In this document: positions 12,726 through 40,141 of the stretch, piece after piece
How the letters are laid out: each line of letters starts with the position of its first letter
Position numbering within the stretch: the first letter of the stretch is position 1
Notes under the pieces: generated by a model
What the model was told of the DNA's origin: nothing
What the model saw: only the letters and a program-made list of their open reading frames with translations
The model's database searches: none
Program-made: the position numbers and the translations under genes
Source: Verrucomicrobiia bacterium DG1235
GTDB taxonomy: Bacteria > Verrucomicrobiota > Verrucomicrobiia > Opitutales > Opitutaceae
Assembly: GCA_000155695.1 (NCBI GenBank)
Contig: DS990592.1
Location: forward strand, 2,162,473-2,226,472
Reading direction: 5' to 3'
DNA: 64,000 nucleotides

Positions 12726-13351
12726 TCAGCCCTGCGTAATCTCGAAGACCCGAGGTTCGTTGAATCGCAACTGGTTCACGTAACTTGCATTTAAAAACCT
12801 CGTCGCGCCTAGCGTTTGGTTGCCGCTACTCCAATGTACGTGACCAAAGACGTGACAATAAGGCTTCACCTCGCGAAGTTTTCGCCGCAAAAAACGGCAG
12901 CCTAAACCTTGGTCAAAGGGTCCATCATCGAGTACACCAAATGGCGGCACATGGGTAATCAGAACGTCGGTCTCGACCGGTATTTTGCTCCATGCCTCTT
13001 CAATTCGCTCGTCTTCCATGGCGAATGCGTAGCCATCGGCGTTAGGCACCCATGGCGAACCGTAATAGCGACTCCCTCGTATTCAAAACCTGAATCCACA
13101 AGCAGCTCTGCTTCGGTTAAATAATTCTTACCGGAACGGCAGCACTGGAAGACTGGTATGTCGTGGTCCCCAGGGACAAATAGCTTTGCCTTGAAATCCT
13201 GTTTCGCAAACCACGCATTGAGCCTCTTCAATTTTTTGTCTCTACAATCGGCTACATCAGCGTAATCGCCTGCATGGATGTGCACGTCGCCCGAAAGCGG
13301 AGGAAGCCTGTCATGTATCGTATGCGTATCGGAGATCACTGTTACGTTCAT
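12726..13351 (-). pseudogene. Metallophosphoesterase, frameshifted
   Basis: Calcineurin-like phosphoesterase of about 208 residues. The first part has VISDTHTIHD (Asp/His metal ligands), HAGDYADV and VPGDHD; the second part, in another frame, has LITHVPP and VFGHVHWSSG, completing the metal site. The frame breaks between 13054 and 13069, where a one-base deletion turns the expected AIYGSPW into AITVRHG. Restoring one base joins the halves. The start ATG at 13351 has AGGA upstream. It could be a real pseudogene or a sequence error; the rest of the coding sequence is intact. Confidence 0.75.
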
Positions 13352-27165: not shown

Positions 27166-27368
27166 GTTGCCAGGTTCGGGCTGCGGTTCCACGTGGACCA
27201 CGACGTTTCCAAGCCCCCAGTGCCGACGGTGCCCCAATCAACTGGGACAGCGACTTCACCTATCTCTTCGACGACGACACCCATTTCGACCTCTTTGTAG
27301 GAGTCGATCTCACCGCCGACGCACCGGACTGGTTTGCAGGCATCGGTTTTGCAAGACGTTGGCGTTAA
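27161..27368 (+). pseudogene. 3' remnant of an outer-membrane transporter-like protein
   Basis: The plus strand encodes an end fragment without a start: INWDSDFTYLFDDD, FDLFVGVDLTADAPDWFAG, IGFARRW and stop. This resembles the last strands of the Phenol_MetA_deg-type (PF13557) transporter family, whose members often end in DDAPDW..G.GF..R. The 5' part is lost at the junction with the merR fragment. Confidence 0.5.
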
Positions 27369-27449
27369 GGAATATAATACCTTGTAAAAGATTATAAACT
27401 TGAATTTGCAGGCAATATAAGTCTCCGTCTCGCCGTCTATCAGTTCGCA

Positions 27450-27887
27450 ATGAAGTTCTTCGCTACAGCGCTATGCCTCCTGACCCTTGTCGTAAATACG
27501 GCGACGGCGTTCTCGGGTGGTAAACTGTTTTGCAAGCACGAGACGGGCGATTCGCACTTGGTTTCCAAGGCCGAGCACGAGTCAAAATCACATCTCGAAA
27601 GTTGCCATAGCCTTGCGAACGAATCGAACGTCGGTCACGCTCCGGGGGAATCCTGCAAGTCTTGCACCGACACCGAAATAGAGAACAAGGCAGCGCTCGA
27701 CAAGGCTTCGCCCAGCAATGACCGCACCGTGGTCAAGAGTCCGGCTGTTGCCTTTTACTTCCTTCCGGAAATCCCTCTGGCAGCGGCCCGCCCGCAGAGC
27801 GACCATGAATCATTCTCCGCAAGGGCGCCTCCCGTCGTCCACGCAGCGGTTCAGCATTTTACGACTACGGTTCAGTTCCGTCTCTGA
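27450..27887 (+). CDS. Secreted Cys/His-rich protein, first gene of czc module A
   Basis: Exported protein of 145 residues with a signal peptide (LVVNTATAFS) and scattered Cys/His residues (LFCKHE, SCHSLANESN, SCKSCTDTEIENKA). The C-terminus SARAPPVVHAAVQHFTTTV ends in QFRL. A second protein with the same layout and C-terminal signature starts czc module B (38.2 kb), so the pair is conserved in position. A periplasmic metal-binding or sensing role is likely but unproven. Confidence 0.6.
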   Translation: MKFFATALCLLTLVVNTATAFSGGKLFCKHETGDSHLVSKAEHESKSHLESCHSLANESNVGHAPGESCKSCTDTEIENKAALDKASPSNDRTVVKSPAVAFYFLPEIPLAAARPQSDHESFSARAPPVVHAAVQHFTTTVQFRL

Positions 27888-27888
27888 T

Positions 27889-27996
27889 ATCCTGTTTCAC
27901 CTTCGACTTGACCGAAGCTGCCTAGTGGCGGCGAACGGCTTGCGGCGAAGAGCAAATACAAAGCTCTCCGCTTTCACATCGAAAACGAAACAGGAT
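27889..27996 (+). promoter_or_regulatory. Leader with ends that pair over the czcC ribosome-binding site, copy A
   Basis: ATCCTGTTTC (27889-27898) pairs perfectly with GAAACAGGAT (27987-27996), which contains the ribosome-binding AGGA of the following tolC-like gene. Small inner hairpins can form, for example AGAGC...GCTCT. The leader begins two bases after the upstream stop codon. The same arrangement recurs at 38.7 kb. Sequestration of the binding site is inferred; no ligand is known. Confidence 0.55.
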
Positions 27997-28001
27997 TTTT
28001 C

Positions 28002-29378
28002 ATGCCCAAATATAACTTTGCATTCAAAAAATCGGTACGCCCACGAACTGGGGCCGACCGAACAGAAATCAGTCGAAAGAAAGAGCCCAGAATCGCTCTG
28101 TCTATCGCACCTATTAAACAAGCTTTAGCTGCGAGCCTCATCCTCGGCGCGAGCTTTGCAACCGTCGAGAATGTCCAAGCTCAGCTGACAGAGGGCGAGG
28201 CGCTGAGTTTCGACCAAGCTCTAGAGTTAGCGATCGAACGCAGTCCACGCGCTCAGCTTCTGGAGGCTCAACTCGAAGCAGTCGAAGGCCAAATCGACCA
28301 AGCCAAGCTCAAGCCCAACCCCACTATCGGAGCGGAGCTGGAAAACGTTCTCGGCACAGGCGAGCTGCAAGGCGTCGACAGCGCCGAACTCACCGTGGGG
28401 ATTTCGCAATTATTCGAACGCCGCGAAAAGCGCGAGAAACGAGCGGAGCTGGCCGAGGCAGGCAAGCAGCTCCATCGATGGGACTACGAGGAGGCTTTAA
28501 CTGAGCTACGCTCCGAAGTAAGGCACGCCTTTTCCAACGCACTCATAGCACAGCAAAACGTGGAGCTTCAAAAGGAGCTTCTCGCAGTTGCAGAGGCCAG
28601 CCAGGCAGAGGTAAGGCGAAGATCCGAAGCTGCCAAAGCCTCTGCCATCGAGCTTTCGCAAGCAAATCTCGCTACTAGCAGACAGGGCTTCGAAATCAGC
28701 CGCGCGCAGCGAGAACTTGCAGAAGCGAAGATTGAACTCGCCGCTCTCCTGAACGAAACGGATCCCGGCAATTTCAAGCTGGAAGGCTCGCTCGAGCTGG
28801 AGGAACGCCTACCGAGCCTAGACGAACTTGCCAGCCTGCTCGACAAATCTCCTGCTCTCGCTCGCTACGCCGCCGAACGTCAAGCGCAGGAAGCGGCAAT
28901 CGAGGTCGAACTCGCCGAAGCAAAAGGCGACCTGGAGCTATTCGGTGGAGTGAAATACCTTCGGGGCGGCAGCGACGAGGCAGCATTCGTTGTCGGTATC
29001 GACATCCCTTGGCAAATCAGGAACCGCAACCAAGGCAACATCCGATCCGCTCGCGCCGGGCTCTTGGCTGTAGAAGCCGAACGCCGTCTTGCGCGCCGCG
29101 ACGCGCTTGCCGCTCTCTCCATCGCTTACGGCAGGCTTCGAAACGCCTTCGATGAATGGCACGGGTTGGACTCGCAGCTTCTGCCATCGGCAGAGTCGAC
29201 TCTGGAATCCACCCAAAACGGATACCAACAGGGCATCGTCACATTGCTTAGCGTGCTGGATGCCCGAACGGCACTATTCGAAATACGAGCAGAAATGCTC
29301 GAAGCAACCCGCGCCTATATCGAGGCAGAAGCCGAAATAGCACGTCTCACATCGTCCGCGCCAGCAAGTAAGAAGTAA
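28002..29378 (+). CDS. czcC: CzcC-type outer-membrane factor (TolC family)
   Basis: Protein of 458 residues with an N-terminal export region (LAASLILGASFATVENVQAQ) and two helical repeats. The first begins LSFDQALELAIERSPRAQLLEAQL; a KPNPTIGAELENVLGTG stretch matches the HME-type outer-membrane factors, and IPWQIRNRNQGNIRSA marks the second repeat. It forms the outer duct of the metal pump encoded by the next two genes. Translation is probably controlled by the leader in front of it. Confidence 0.82.
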   Translation: MPKYNFAFKKSVRPRTGADRTEISRKKEPRIALSIAPIKQALAASLILGASFATVENVQAQLTEGEALSFDQALELAIERSPRAQLLEAQLEAVEGQIDQAKLKPNPTIGAELENVLGTGELQGVDSAELTVGISQLFERREKREKRAELAEAGKQLHRWDYEEALTELRSEVRHAFSNALIAQQNVELQKELLAVAEASQAEVRRRSEAAKASAIELSQANLATSRQGFEISRAQRELAEAKIELAALLNETDPGNFKLEGSLELEERLPSLDELASLLDKSPALARYAAERQAQEAAIEVELAEAKGDLELFGGVKYLRGGSDEAAFVVGIDIPWQIRNRNQGNIRSARAGLLAVEAERRLARRDALAALSIAYGRLRNAFDEWHGLDSQLLPSAESTLESTQNGYQQGIVTLLSVLDARTALFEIRAEMLEATRAYIEAEAEIARLTSSAPASKK

Positions 29379-33574: not shown

Positions 33575-33901
33575 ATGAAAGAAGTCAAAGCATACATAAA
33601 AGCCTTCAAACTAGGCGATGTCACCCAAGCCCTTCACAAGATCGAAGGCCTGGATGGGGCTAGCGTATCCGAAGTACGCGGCTTCGGTCGCAGCAAAAAG
33701 GCGACCTCCGGATTCGACTCAGAAAAGAGCCCGTCCGAGTTCGTCAAGCACGTGAAGATCGAGGTCGTCTGCGAAGACGAGGTCGAAGCGCAGGTCGTCA
33801 ACGCCATCCACAAAGCCGCCCATACCGGGCTGCGAGGCGACGGAAAAATCTACGTCAGCGACGTGAGCCGAGGCATCCGCATCCAAGAGCTAAGCGAGTA
33901 A
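33575..33901 (+). CDS. PII-like protein of a metal-efflux operon
   Basis: Protein of 108 residues with the PII ferredoxin-like order: KEVKAYIKAFKLGDVTQAL, a T-loop-like stretch around GRSKKATSGFDSE, then KIEVVCEDEVEAQVVNAI and GDGKIYVSDVSRGIRI (B-loop and C-terminal strand). The uridylylation Tyr of GlnB is not evident. A PII-like group linked to CzcA-type pumps rather than nitrogen genes is known, and the place 12 bases after czcA agrees with it. It may tune the pump in response to a nucleotide or metal. Confidence 0.78.
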   Translation: MKEVKAYIKAFKLGDVTQALHKIEGLDGASVSEVRGFGRSKKATSGFDSEKSPSEFVKHVKIEVVCEDEVEAQVVNAIHKAAHTGLRGDGKIYVSDVSRGIRIQELSE

Positions 33902-33937: not shown

Positions 33938-34480
33938 ATGAACACATCTAAAATGAGAACAGCCCTCGCCCTCTCGCTTATGGTTTTCTACTCGGGAGCC
34001 CAAAGCTTCGCCGAACCCAAAGACACGGACCATGACGGTCACGATCATCCGAAAAAAGGCCATGAGGATCACGACGACCACGAACATGAAAGCCACGATG
34101 ACCACGATCATTCGAAATACGAAAAGGCAACGCTCCCTCAACTGCTCGAAATCATGGAGGAAAGCGTCGGAGAGCTAACGTCTATAGCCTCGGGAAAGGT
34201 CTCGCACGATGCGGAGGCAAGCATCGAGACGCTAATCGACGCAGCTAAAGCGCTCCCCTCGAAAAGCAACGGCCTAGAGGAAAAGCAAATCCTTAGGGTG
34301 AAGTCAGCTATCGGCAGCATGCAGACCATCGCCATGAAACTCGAAACCGCTCTCCATCAGAACAACACGGCAGAGGCTGAGAAAATCGCTGGCCAACTCG
34401 GGAAACTCTTCGAGCTAATCAAATCGCAATACCCCGAAGCCGCTCATCAAGACCACGATGGGCATGGCCACGATCACTAA
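33938..34480 (+). CDS. His-rich periplasmic protein
   Basis: Exported protein of 180 residues. A signal peptide (SGAQSFAEP) is followed by a dense His/Asp tract (DHDGHDHPKKGHEDHDDHEH), then a helical domain of about 100 residues and a C-terminal HQDHDGHGHDH tail. The two His tracts suggest periplasmic binding of zinc, nickel or cobalt, buffering metal for the RND pump. The central helical domain is not recognised. Confidence 0.65.
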   Translation: MNTSKMRTALALSLMVFYSGAQSFAEPKDTDHDGHDHPKKGHEDHDDHEHESHDDHDHSKYEKATLPQLLEIMEESVGELTSIASGKVSHDAEASIETLIDAAKALPSKSNGLEEKQILRVKSAIGSMQTIAMKLETALHQNNTAEAEKIAGQLGKLFELIKSQYPEAAHQDHDGHGHDH

Positions 34481-38149: not shown

Positions 38150-38241
38150 AAGTCCTACGCCCCGCAATTGAGAACGACTCTCAGGAAAAGACTTGAGTTT
38201 CCGGCAATCTTATTCAGACAAGGATCGTAAACCAAAACGTA

Positions 38242-38670
38242 ATGAAACCTATCTTCGCGCTCATCTTCACAATCGCTCTCGCGTGCAACTCTGCACTAGC
38301 GGGCATTGGTGGTTGGGTCTACTGCGTCGAGAAGGGCTCCGGAACGATTTGCAGCGTCACTTCGGAGAAGACTGCTAACCTTCCGGAAAACTGCTGTCCA
38401 ATCGAGGAGGTAAAGAGTTCAGCGAACGCACCACGTCCTTTCGAATGCGATCACTGCATCGATTACGAAATCGATGCGAGCGAGGAAGAAGCGACTGTCA
38501 GCGTTGACCGAGTTGTCGTAAAAGCTATTGCTGTTATCGCTTGGACTTCGACGGACTTAATTGTAGTCCGCAACGAAGAGATAAACTCAAAGAATACTCC
38601 TGTAAGGGCTCCACCAATACAAAATGGAGCCGCCCGGCTTTTTGCGGACACCGTCGTGTTCCGCGTCTGA
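38242..38670 (+). CDS. Secreted Cys-rich protein, first gene of czc module B
   Basis: Exported protein of 142 residues: signal peptide (LACNSALAG), Cys pairs (ENCCPIEE, FECDHCIDYEIDASEEEA), and the C-terminal VRAPPIQNGAARLFADTVVF. It parallels the protein at 27450-27887 in length, in the C-x2-C-x-D-x-EI element and in the RAPP...FR ending. Both precede the same kind of leader and a tolC-like gene. Confidence 0.6.
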   Translation: MKPIFALIFTIALACNSALAGIGGWVYCVEKGSGTICSVTSEKTANLPENCCPIEEVKSSANAPRPFECDHCIDYEIDASEEEATVSVDRVVVKAIAVIAWTSTDLIVVRNEEINSKNTPVRAPPIQNGAARLFADTVVFRV

Positions 38671-38671
38671 T

Positions 38672-38780
38672 ATCCTGTTTTAGATTCGATACCTCCCTAA
38701 ATGCGCCGATGCGCCTAGGGCCTTACTGACCGCGATTCCCTCAGGGAAACCGCGTCTCACTCTCGAAAACGAAACAGGAT
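38672..38780 (+). promoter_or_regulatory. Leader with ends that pair over the czcC ribosome-binding site, copy B
   Basis: ATCCTGTTT (38672-38680) pairs with AAACAGGAT (38772-38780), which holds the AGGA of the next gene. Inner hairpins are strong: CCCTA...TAGGG enclosing GCGC...GCGC, then TCCCT-C-AGGGA closed by GCG...CGC. The outer sequences (TGATATCCTGTTT and CGAAAACGAAACAGGATTTT) are shared with copy A while the inside differs, which is what a conserved RNA switch or attenuator would show. Confidence 0.55.
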
Positions 38781-38785
38781 TTTCC

Positions 38786-40141
38786 ATGCCCAGTCTCCAA
38801 TCTTCTACTTTAGAAATCGCGCCGCATTGGCGTCTCAGATCAACAGCCATTGTGCTCGCTAGCTTACTTGCGCTCAGTAGCACAGCCACCCAAGCACAAG
38901 AACCCGCCTATCCCGCTCCGCGGGACGTCTCCAGCAAGACAGAAGCTCCTAAAGTATCGGGTACGGTTACGCTCCAGCGGGCGATCTCGCTCGCCATCGA
39001 GCATAGCCCAGAGCTTCAGGCTCTCGCATGGGATGCCAACGGCTCTCTCGCCAGAATTCGCCAAGCCCGTCTATGGCCGAATCCAGAGCTTGAATACGAA
39101 CGCGAGAACTTCGGAGGCACCGGAAAGTTCGATGGATCGGACTTGGCCGAAACCACACTAAGCCTCGCTCAAGCCCTCCCGGTTGGCGGAGACATCAAGC
39201 AGCGGCGCAAGATCGCAGAGCTGGATTCTCAACTCGCCGACTGGGACTATCACGCGGCCCGCCTTGAAACCATTGCCGAAGTCACGCGGCGGTTCGTCGC
39301 CGCTCTCGCTGCAGATCGGAGCCTGCTTCTCGCGAAACAGGAACTCGAGCTCGCCCAAGCCACCGAAGAACTAACCCAGAACCGCGTTGACGCAGGCGAT
39401 GCATCACCGCTGGAACTCTCCCGAGTAATCGTCCCCGTTATAACGACCGAGCTCGCACTCAAACGCGCCGAACGGCTACGCGAGGCCGCTTATCGAAGAC
39501 TTTCCCTAAGCTGGGGAGAACGAGTAGTGACGTTCACAGAAATCGCTGGCGACCTGGACGCAGTGTCGCCAGCCCCCAGTCCCGAGGCCTTGATCCAACA
39601 TCTAGGCGAGAATCCAGACGTTGCTCGTTGGGCCATCGAAATCAGCGCTCGGATCGCCGAACGCCGCCTCGCTAAAGCCGAAGCCATCCCGAATATAACT
39701 GGACGATTCGGACTAAAGCGAGACAACGAAAGCGGAGACGAAGCCATCGTAGTCGGGATATCACTACCACTGCCGCTATTTAATAGAGGACAAGCGCAAA
39801 TTCAATCCGCCCGAGCTGGCGAAGCCTCAGCCCGCAGTCGCCAGAAAGCTGCCGAGCTTCGCCTCGAACGACTCCTTAGCGAATCCTATTCCGAACTTGC
39901 CAACGCCTACGACGAAGCCGTCGCCATCCGCGACCGAGCGCTACCCGCCGCAGAAAAGGCTTACCAAGGAACCCAGCTCGCATTCAAGGAAGGCAAGCTT
40001 CCCTTCCTCGACGTTCTCGACGCGCAGCGAACCCTTTTCGAGCTCCAAGAGAGCTACCTGCAAGCGCTCCAAGCCTACCACATCGGAGCCGCCAACATAG
40101 AATCGCTAATTGGCCGCAGTCTCGCCGAGCTGTCCCGCTAG
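38786..40141 (+). CDS. czcC: CzcC-type outer-membrane factor, module B
   Basis: Protein of 451 residues: export region (ASLLALSSTATQAQ), first repeat VTLQRAISLAIEHSPELQAL, HME-type segment LWPNPELEYERENFGGTGKF, and second-repeat marker SLPLPLFNRGQAQIQSARAG. It is clearly related to the module A protein but diverged. It would supply the outer duct for the module B pump. Confidence 0.82.
   Translation: MPSLQSSTLEIAPHWRLRSTAIVLASLLALSSTATQAQEPAYPAPRDVSSKTEAPKVSGTVTLQRAISLAIEHSPELQALAWDANGSLARIRQARLWPNPELEYERENFGGTGKFDGSDLAETTLSLAQALPVGGDIKQRRKIAELDSQLADWDYHAARLETIAEVTRRFVAALAADRSLLLAKQELELAQATEELTQNRVDAGDASPLELSRVIVPVITTELALKRAERLREAAYRRLSLSWGERVVTFTEIAGDLDAVSPAPSPEALIQHLGENPDVARWAIEISARIAERRLAKAEAIPNITGRFGLKRDNESGDEAIVVGISLPLPLFNRGQAQIQSARAGEASARSRQKAAELRLERLLSESYSELANAYDEAVAIRDRALPAAEKAYQGTQLAFKEGKLPFLDVLDAQRTLFELQESYLQALQAYHIGAANIESLIGRSLAELSR

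Follow-up and report, generated by a model that had tools for sequence, protein, structure and literature searches.

A stop-anchored stem over the czcC ribosome-binding site in czc operons of Verrucomicrobiota, a candidate translational-coupling switch

The window analysed here is a stretch of 64,000 nucleotides from Verrucomicrobiia bacterium DG1235 (contig DS990592.1, positions 2,162,473 to 2,226,472 of the forward strand), and it carries two czc operons on its + strand. The first starts with a gene for a Cys/His-rich protein of 145 aa with a hydrophobic N-terminus and a C-terminal RAPP (27450..27887, assigned from its ORF and alignments), followed by czcC copy 1, which encodes an outer membrane efflux protein (28002..29378; PF02321, E 3.6e-42). 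In the second, a gene of the same type for 142 aa (38242..38670, also from ORF and alignments) precedes czcC copy 2 (38786..40141; PF02321, E 2.9e-48). Genes similar to czcB and czcA lie downstream of czcC in both operons, with a 148-aa ORF intervening among them in copy 2. A sigma-70-like promoter was found 5' of the first small gene (TTGCAA, 18 nt, TATAAT; 27349..27378, +), as a consensus match only, and the consensus scan matched none 5' of the second. Directly 3' of czcA copy 1 there is a gene for a P-II type signal protein (33575-33901; PF00543, E 1.4e-19), and after it a 180-aa ORF (33938-34480) for which the matches are weak, one of them being to the zinc uptake protein ZrgA (E 0.0019).

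The two small proteins are CzcI-like by gene order and by their Cys/His pattern. No NCBIfam or Pfam family matches them at E 0.1, and the CzcI profile NF045614 leaves them unmatched at the same threshold. Among 36 aligned relatives, three give weak matches to the CzcI model (E 0.012 at best) and none matches the Pfam family DUF2946 at E 0.1, which is also the case for the window proteins. In copy 1, the CXXC codons (CKSC, 27654..27665, +), whose second Cys opens a C-x-D motif, are followed by the RAPP codons (27822..27833, +), after which there are 17 sense codons and the stop. In copy 2, the corresponding CDHC and RAPP codons are at 38446-38457 and 38605-38616 (+).

Between each czcI-like gene and its czcC lies a leader whose two ends pair with each other. 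In copy 1 (27885..28004, +, from the czcI stop to the czcC start codon) the stop TGA is at 27885-27887 and the czcC ATG at 28002. The 5' arm of the stem, named P1, is ATCCTGTTTC (27889..27898, +), an anti-SD sequence starting 1 nt past the stop codon, and the 3' arm is GAAACAGGAT (27987..27996, +), which ends 5 nt 5' of the ATG and includes the czcC SD core AGGA (27992-27995, +). In copy 2 (38668..38788, +) the stop TGA (38668-38670) is followed by the arm ATCCTGTTTT (38672..38681, +), and the same 3' arm with the SD, GAAACAGGAT (38771..38780, +), precedes the ATG at 38786. P1 therefore joins the bases just past the czcI-like stop codon to the czcC SD region in both leaders, over 10 bp, with one U-G pair in copy 2. 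A sequence-only reading of this DNA had proposed complementary leader ends with AGGA in the 3' arm, as found here in both copies; its span for the first leader, 27889-28004, takes in the pairing ends and starts after the stop codon, the position of which is relevant to the mechanism discussed below. That the 5' arm stands right behind the stop, and that the upstream protein carries a RAPP-like motif, are features that hint at the mechanism and are absent from that reading.

Inside P1 of copy 1, a 5-bp helix (TTCGA 27902-27906 / TCGAA 27979-27983, spanning 27902..27983, +) enclosing two hairpins appears in the predicted fold, as a prediction only. The whole leaders fold more stably than dinucleotide shuffles (z = -5.56 and -4.55 for copies 1 and 2; 0 of 200 shuffles fold as well as either), and the interiors alone are also more stable than shuffles (z = -3.44 and -2.35), in agreement with the earlier description of interiors that are hairpin-rich in both copies and different in sequence. 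Of the 4227 Rfam models none matched either leader up to E 1; at gathering score the sole Rfam match in the window is a tRNA gene (2858-2930). Neither leader contained a + strand promoter or an intrinsic terminator in a consensus scan of both stretches, and intrinsic attenuation was set aside, no + strand terminator-like site being present there. Sites like attC and repeats like REP, considered from sequence only, were also set aside.

The exact 20-base 3' end of the leader occurs at three places in the same genome. The third copy, on the minus strand at ~4.599 Mb, shares the P1 arms, lies behind a CzcI-like protein gene whose product is 99% identical to that of copy 2, and has a czcC-like frame downstream. 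A fourth, weaker match to the covariance model (E 9.0e-5) is behind the CzcI-like gene of locus L030, where the gene downstream of the leader is an OEP gene (E 5e-19). All four matches to the covariance model up to E 1 in this genome sit behind CzcI-like genes. Two further candidates were discarded: the match at 13192 had no second arm noticed nearby, and L004, with three mismatches to the leader 3' end, lies apparently inside a different kind of coding stretch, as judged by eye.

Operon copies 2 (window 38195-40110) and 3 (L005 7526-9959) form a mosaic. Their czcI genes are ~99% identical; then come a diverged leader interior and czcC 5' part, after which czcC is 100% identical until near its end, where the sequences part. 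This looks like gene conversion, judging from the pattern of identity. The czcC frame of copy 3 is open for ~629 codons versus 451, and is perhaps fused to the next gene.

Searches with a CzcI profile gave genomes with matches in five rounds (10 of 150, 8 of 8, 18 of 252, 17 of 387, and 49 of 372). The first four provided a first set of 46 loci, with L014, on a cut contig, left out. In 41 leaders with spacers of 74-143 nt, pairing was measured as the longest uninterrupted run that the first 16 nt past the stop form with the last 22 nt ahead of the ATG; outside this number remain L011 (contig end), L058 (no stop), L039, whose leader has a 10 bp stop-to-SD pairing, and L044 and L052, in which no P1-like stem was recognised and which count as misses. 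The mean run in the 41 leaders was 9.46, and the run reached 8 or more in 34 and 7 or more in 37, numbers that carry a mild bias, as the choice of ATG was partly guided by the stem. When the arms were swapped between loci the mean run was 6.50 and 25% reached 8, and with shuffled arms it was 5.02 and 3.4% reached 8; the observed mean was attained by 0 of 20000 permutations of the swapped arms. The P1 5' arm begins 0-6 nt past the stop in 40 of the 41 loci and ends by +15 within the 16-nt search window. With a 25-nt window every recognisable stem was obtained again, and a few loci, such as L022, L041, and L042, then gave longer chance pairings. P1 is absent from one locus of the same genus, L023.

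The order search supplied 46 of the 47 loci of a second set, which left 36 distinct leaders with an ATG and an SD-like triplet once 8 loci without such a triplet and 3 duplicates had been put aside. Here the start codon required an SD-like triplet before the ATG, a criterion independent of the stem, and the start appears to be wrong in L095, L098, and L114. In this set, 25 leaders pair over at least 8 bp and 28 over at least 7 bp. Its independence is partial, because some of its genomes also fed the first set. Both sets together make 77 leaders, of which 65 have a best stop-to-SD pairing of at least 7 bp, and in 73 at least 5 pairs of the best pairing are present in the predicted structure. 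Among the eight loci without an SD-like triplet, L101 has 12 bp and L103 a stem seen by eye, L105 and L110 pair differently, and in L108, L109, L111, and L115 no P1-like stem was seen. In L029, L105, and L110, arms of the GTTTCG type pair, by eye, around a start region lacking an AGG/GGA SD, so that this subgroup perhaps hides the start codon itself. Besides both window copies, the downstream gene was PF02321-positive in all ten other loci examined.

The sequence of the stem changes between loci and its pairing is largely preserved. Alignment A4 contains 35 of the 41 leaders, after removal of the duplicates or near-duplicates L007 and L059, of L023, which has no stem, and of the divergent L025, L027, and L029 (7, 8, and 7 bp). 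In A4, 90.5% of the P1 cells are paired and eight of the ten pairs show changes on both sides, with 42 double-change cells versus 12.7 in shuffles (0 of 500 shuffles as high); further pair types are less telling, since 25 of 500 shuffles reach them. When the partner was slid by one column, 44-46% of cells were paired. Compensated arm pairs are, for example, TCCTGTTT/AAACAGGA, TCCTGATTCG/CGAATCAGGA, TCCTAATTC/GAATTAGGA, and CTCCTGA/TCAGGAG. In the second set, with its 36 leaders aligned and none dropped, the figures were 91.0% of P1 cells paired, six of nine pairs with double changes (8 of 500 shuffles reach as many), and 34 double-change cells versus 11.0 when shuffled (0 of 500), with further pair types reached by 49 of 500. 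Run unprompted on the alignment, RNAalifold predicted P1 and nothing else; conserved sequence was not found in the leader interior, which aligns poorly. These alignments show that the P1 pairing is kept across families while its sequence changes. The earlier idea of a conserved outer stem that masks the czcC ribosome-binding site in a regulated RNA gains support from these copies: it would have been refuted by an absence of further copies with compensatory changes, and such copies are numerous.

The covariance model R1, built on P1 and the leader, gave 36 matches in 24 of the 273 genomes of the order on which it was run, and a coordinate check placed all 36 directly behind a CzcI-like ORF; 15 are places used for building the model and 21 are not. 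Both window leaders, with which it was trained, match it at E 4.5e-7 (copy 1) and 2.5e-10 (copy 2). The model is not exhaustive: G288 and G296 have five CzcI hits each but three and two model matches, and at E 0.001 it misses known leaders such as L042, L053, and L060. In addition, a pattern scan for one motif variant across a collection of 84,980 genomes gave 11 matches, all of which precede a czcC-like ORF (by eye, two being cut at 75 residues), with an upstream CzcI-like ORF visible in 10; the eleventh, L124, has just the last three CzcI-like residues on its contig. They come from Pelagicoccus, Coraliomargarita, other Opitutales, Opitutaceae, Puniceicoccaceae, and one MAG labelled Gammaproteobacteria. 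In this MAG (JAACDF01), contigs L125 and L127 carry a Coraliomargarita-like CzcI, leader, and czcC, which represents either misbinning or transfer.

Concerning the upstream protein, two Cys and one Asp (C-x-D) are invariant in the 36 aligned members, followed in conservation by PP and a penultimate Arg. In 88 distinct proteins, a set that may include a few non-members and in which the signal sequence was judged by eye, PP stands exactly 17 residues before the end in 58, and R[AG]PP lies 15-20 residues before the end in 54, including both window copies, and exactly 17 in 44. QAPP occurs in nine, and 16 have no PP among the last 30 residues. The penultimate Arg is present in 73, within a conserved C-terminus T-V/I-x-L-R-I/L-stop. 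In shuffled proteins, R[AG]PP appears in the last 25 residues at a frequency of 0.0001, and this motif is reported to be avoided in proteomes (PMC12992588). The codons of the motif differ between loci, by eye, so it is the C-terminal peptide, and not the RNA, that seems to be conserved. In 53 of the 66 proteins with both, 49-52 residues separate the C-x-D Cys from the motif, and many proteins have a single Cys there and not CXXC. If the tunnel takes up ~30 residues and the membrane 17 (PMC9973294), a gap of this size would bring the C-x-D Cys close to the outer translocon side during decoding of RAPP.

The accessibility of the czcC SD was modelled by folding in 73 of the 77 leaders, the other four having no AGG/GGA triplet or not enough upstream sequence. 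These models ignore kinetics and proteins, and the RAPP-paused position was set at 57 nt before the stop for all leaders, with the motif present or not. A ribosome reaches 16 nt forward. The mean unpaired probability of the SD core was 0.02 in the free leader, 0.02 with a ribosome at RAPP, and 0.44 with a ribosome on the stop, and the ribosome on the stop opened the SD more than the RAPP-paused one in 70 of the 73 leaders, to a value above 0.5 in 29, which is a partial opening only. The window copies reached 0.61 and 0.24 with the ribosome on the stop; eight control genes of the window gave a mean of 0.34, two of them near 0.08. Opening takes place between the ribosome-front positions +5 and +10 relative to the stop. 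Pairing between the czcI tail and the leader was also considered as an alternative fold and rejected, as the SD was still closed when 60 nt of czcI were included.

Taken together, the leader is probably a translational-coupling switch from the czcI-like gene to czcC, with a pause at RAPP that metal would relieve. The two parts of this reading, which was built on comparative sequence data, differ in strength. That the upstream ribosome opens the stem hiding the czcC SD is very likely: according to the folds, the SD would be closed with no ribosome on the leader or with one paused upstream, and a ribosome on the czcI stop codon would cover the P1 5' arm and partly free the SD. The gating of czcC by a metal-relieved pause has about even chances. 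In this scheme, the nascent CzcI-like chain would pause the ribosome at the RAPP/RGPP-type motif, 17 codons before the stop, with the metal-binding C-x-D region near the outer translocon side, as protein anatomy and precedent suggest. In CruR, the third and fourth RAPP residues are reported in the P and A sites during arrest (PMC12992588); with such a placement the front of the paused ribosome would be ~41 nt before the stop and P1 would stay shut. Metal would relieve the pause, the ribosome would run to the stop, the stem would open, and the CzcCBA efflux pump would be made. Hence, in the model, czcC should be switched on by release of the arrest and not by the arrest, a preference due to the 17-codon tail that separates RAPP from the stop.

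Plain translational coupling without a signal, in which P1 ties czcC to the translation of czcI for stoichiometry and RAPP has another role or none, is a possible if rather doubtful alternative. Coupling through an SD-hiding stem is of an established kind, and P1 is also present where the protein lacks PP, as in L033, L036, L031, L037, and L053, so an arrest step cannot be universal. Against it, the proteome-avoided R[AG]PP keeps a constant spacing to the stop in most of the proteins, which also have conserved Cys, His, and Asp residues, and the similar proteins CruR and CutF are reported as metal sensors. Plain coupling may nevertheless be older than any gating, since leaders without a RAPP upstream still have P1.

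A logic of the CutF type is rather unlikely; here the pause would fall not at RAPP but at or very near the stop codon, where metal would stall the ribosome and the stalled ribosome would keep the stem open. The extreme C-terminus, with its penultimate Arg, is conserved and would occupy the upper tunnel; a ribosome on the stop does open P1 in the folding model, and CutF itself has been proposed to work so (PMC9973294). However, the sole recognised arrest motif is the RAPP 17 codons upstream, from where a paused ribosome misses P1 in the model.

The binding of a CsrA-type repressor to the SD region is very improbable. The genome has one CsrA gene (E 3.5e-22), and ACAGGAU in the leader resembles the CsrA consensus, but the stem is kept in the CAGGTT leaders L041, L042, and L065 and in L101 and L103, which lack AGG/GGA before the ATG, and thus it is the pairing rather than GGA that is kept. 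There is even less room for a riboswitch sensing metal or another ligand directly: interior hairpins more stable than shuffles are present, but no conserved interior emerged from the (poor) interior alignment, from which RNAalifold took P1 only, and Rfam gave no match. Of the three options offered by the sequence-only reading, a translational attenuator is the best fit; a metal-sensing RNA is unlikely for lack of a conserved interior, with the caveat of that poor alignment, and a protein-binding leader keeps a small chance through the one CsrA gene. Finally, a feature at the DNA level (an inverted repeat that serves recombination or binds a regulator) or a remnant of island duplication is scarcely credible. 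Copies 2 and 3 do belong to mosaic, duplicated operons. However, operons with CzcI-like proteins of just 29% identity have retained the same arms, and in other loci the arms show compensated changes and stay in the same position between the stop and the start codon. This placement is a stronger argument than covariation, because a DNA inverted repeat could also covary.

The full sequence of events proposed from these comparisons, namely that RAPP holds the ribosome, metal frees it, and the terminating ribosome opens the SD stem, has somewhat less than an even chance of being right. If true, it would mean that metal induces efflux at the level of translation, with the small secreted CzcI-like protein acting as gatekeeper, and it would give a testable answer to how nascent-peptide metal sensors switch on an efflux gene across a spacer of ~100 nt. 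What CzcI-like proteins do in czc operons can now be tested directly, and a specific covariance model is now supplied for locating their leaders. No description of this leader, or of translational control of czcI-czcC in Verrucomicrobiota, was found in the literature covered, which was largely open-access main text.

Regarding known systems, CzcI of Cupriavidus metallidurans pMOL30 shares with these operons the czcI-czcC order, a Cys/His-rich protein, and a profile similarity that is weak (probability 21) and spans 38 N-terminal columns. Its 75-nt junction differs, with a longest stop-to-SD pairing of 4 bp, and the stop-to-SD stem is absent from two Cupriavidus czcI-czcC junctions. A strong hairpin lies right after the czcI stop in the pMOL30 junction (L160 1303-1377) and does not reach the SD. 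Classical coupling through hidden SD sequences is known from rplJ-rplL, atpHA, and the coat-replicase pair of RNA phages, where a terminating or passing ribosome opens the structure; in contrast, a single stop-anchored stem is associated here with a putative metal sensor and shows covariation over an order of bacteria. Outside Verrucomicrobiota, related small proteins are encoded ahead of a TolC-family gene on three plasmids of Methylomonas (Gammaproteobacteria). The L161 protein is a distant relative of those aligned here (hhalign probability 87, E 3.8e-6, C-terminus unaligned), and the other two loci, L165 and L166, were found together with it. In all three, the SD region pairs with nucleotides immediately past the stop, over 12 uninterrupted pairs in L166, when an upstream ATG is used instead of the annotated start, and over 5+4 and 4+4 bp in L161 and L165. 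A similar layout on three plasmids with unrelated stem sequences suggests that it also occurs more widely than in Verrucomicrobiota.

The sequence-only reading knew of no described element of this form, which agrees with Rfam, although the SD-shielding stem-loop of CutF is a close functional precedent (PMC9973294). In CutF-cutO of Rhodobacter capsulatus, copper is proposed to prolong stalling and so to open the stem, and, as in the operons described here, the gene of a small secreted metal-binding protein, Pro-rich at its C-terminus, lies before an intergenic stem-loop shielding the SD of the next gene; CutF-like proteins also often adjoin OEP/RND genes, according to the same source (PMC9973294). 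The PP of CutF is near the C-terminus, whereas here it mostly has 17 residues after it, which would leave a RAPP-paused ribosome out of reach of P1. The filter of the CutF survey, PP inside the last 15 residues, is passed by one of the 88 proteins and by neither window protein, so 87 of this group of CzcI-like proteins would fail it. With CruR (DUF2946) of Bordetella pertussis, in which copper is proposed to relieve a RAPP arrest, the likeness lies in a nascent chain with a C-terminal arrest motif, putative here, at the head of a metal operon. CruR has its Cys motif ~45 residues before RAPP (PMC9426467), and the gap here is mostly 49-52 residues, often from a single Cys. However, the CruR RAPP is three residues from the end and not mostly 17, its output is Rho-dependent termination before an importer gene and not an SD-hiding stem before an efflux gene, and its long spacer has been called incompatible with coupling (PMC9426467). 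RAPP/RGPP proteins have been reported upstream of metal genes in a study whose main text does not use the term czc (PMC12992588). From what these sources describe, CutF, for its SD-shielding stem-loop, and CruR, for its RAPP arrest relieved by copper, are the closest kin of the czcI-like/czcC leader, which, if the proposed release by metal is true, would join the arrest direction of CruR to an output of the CutF type.
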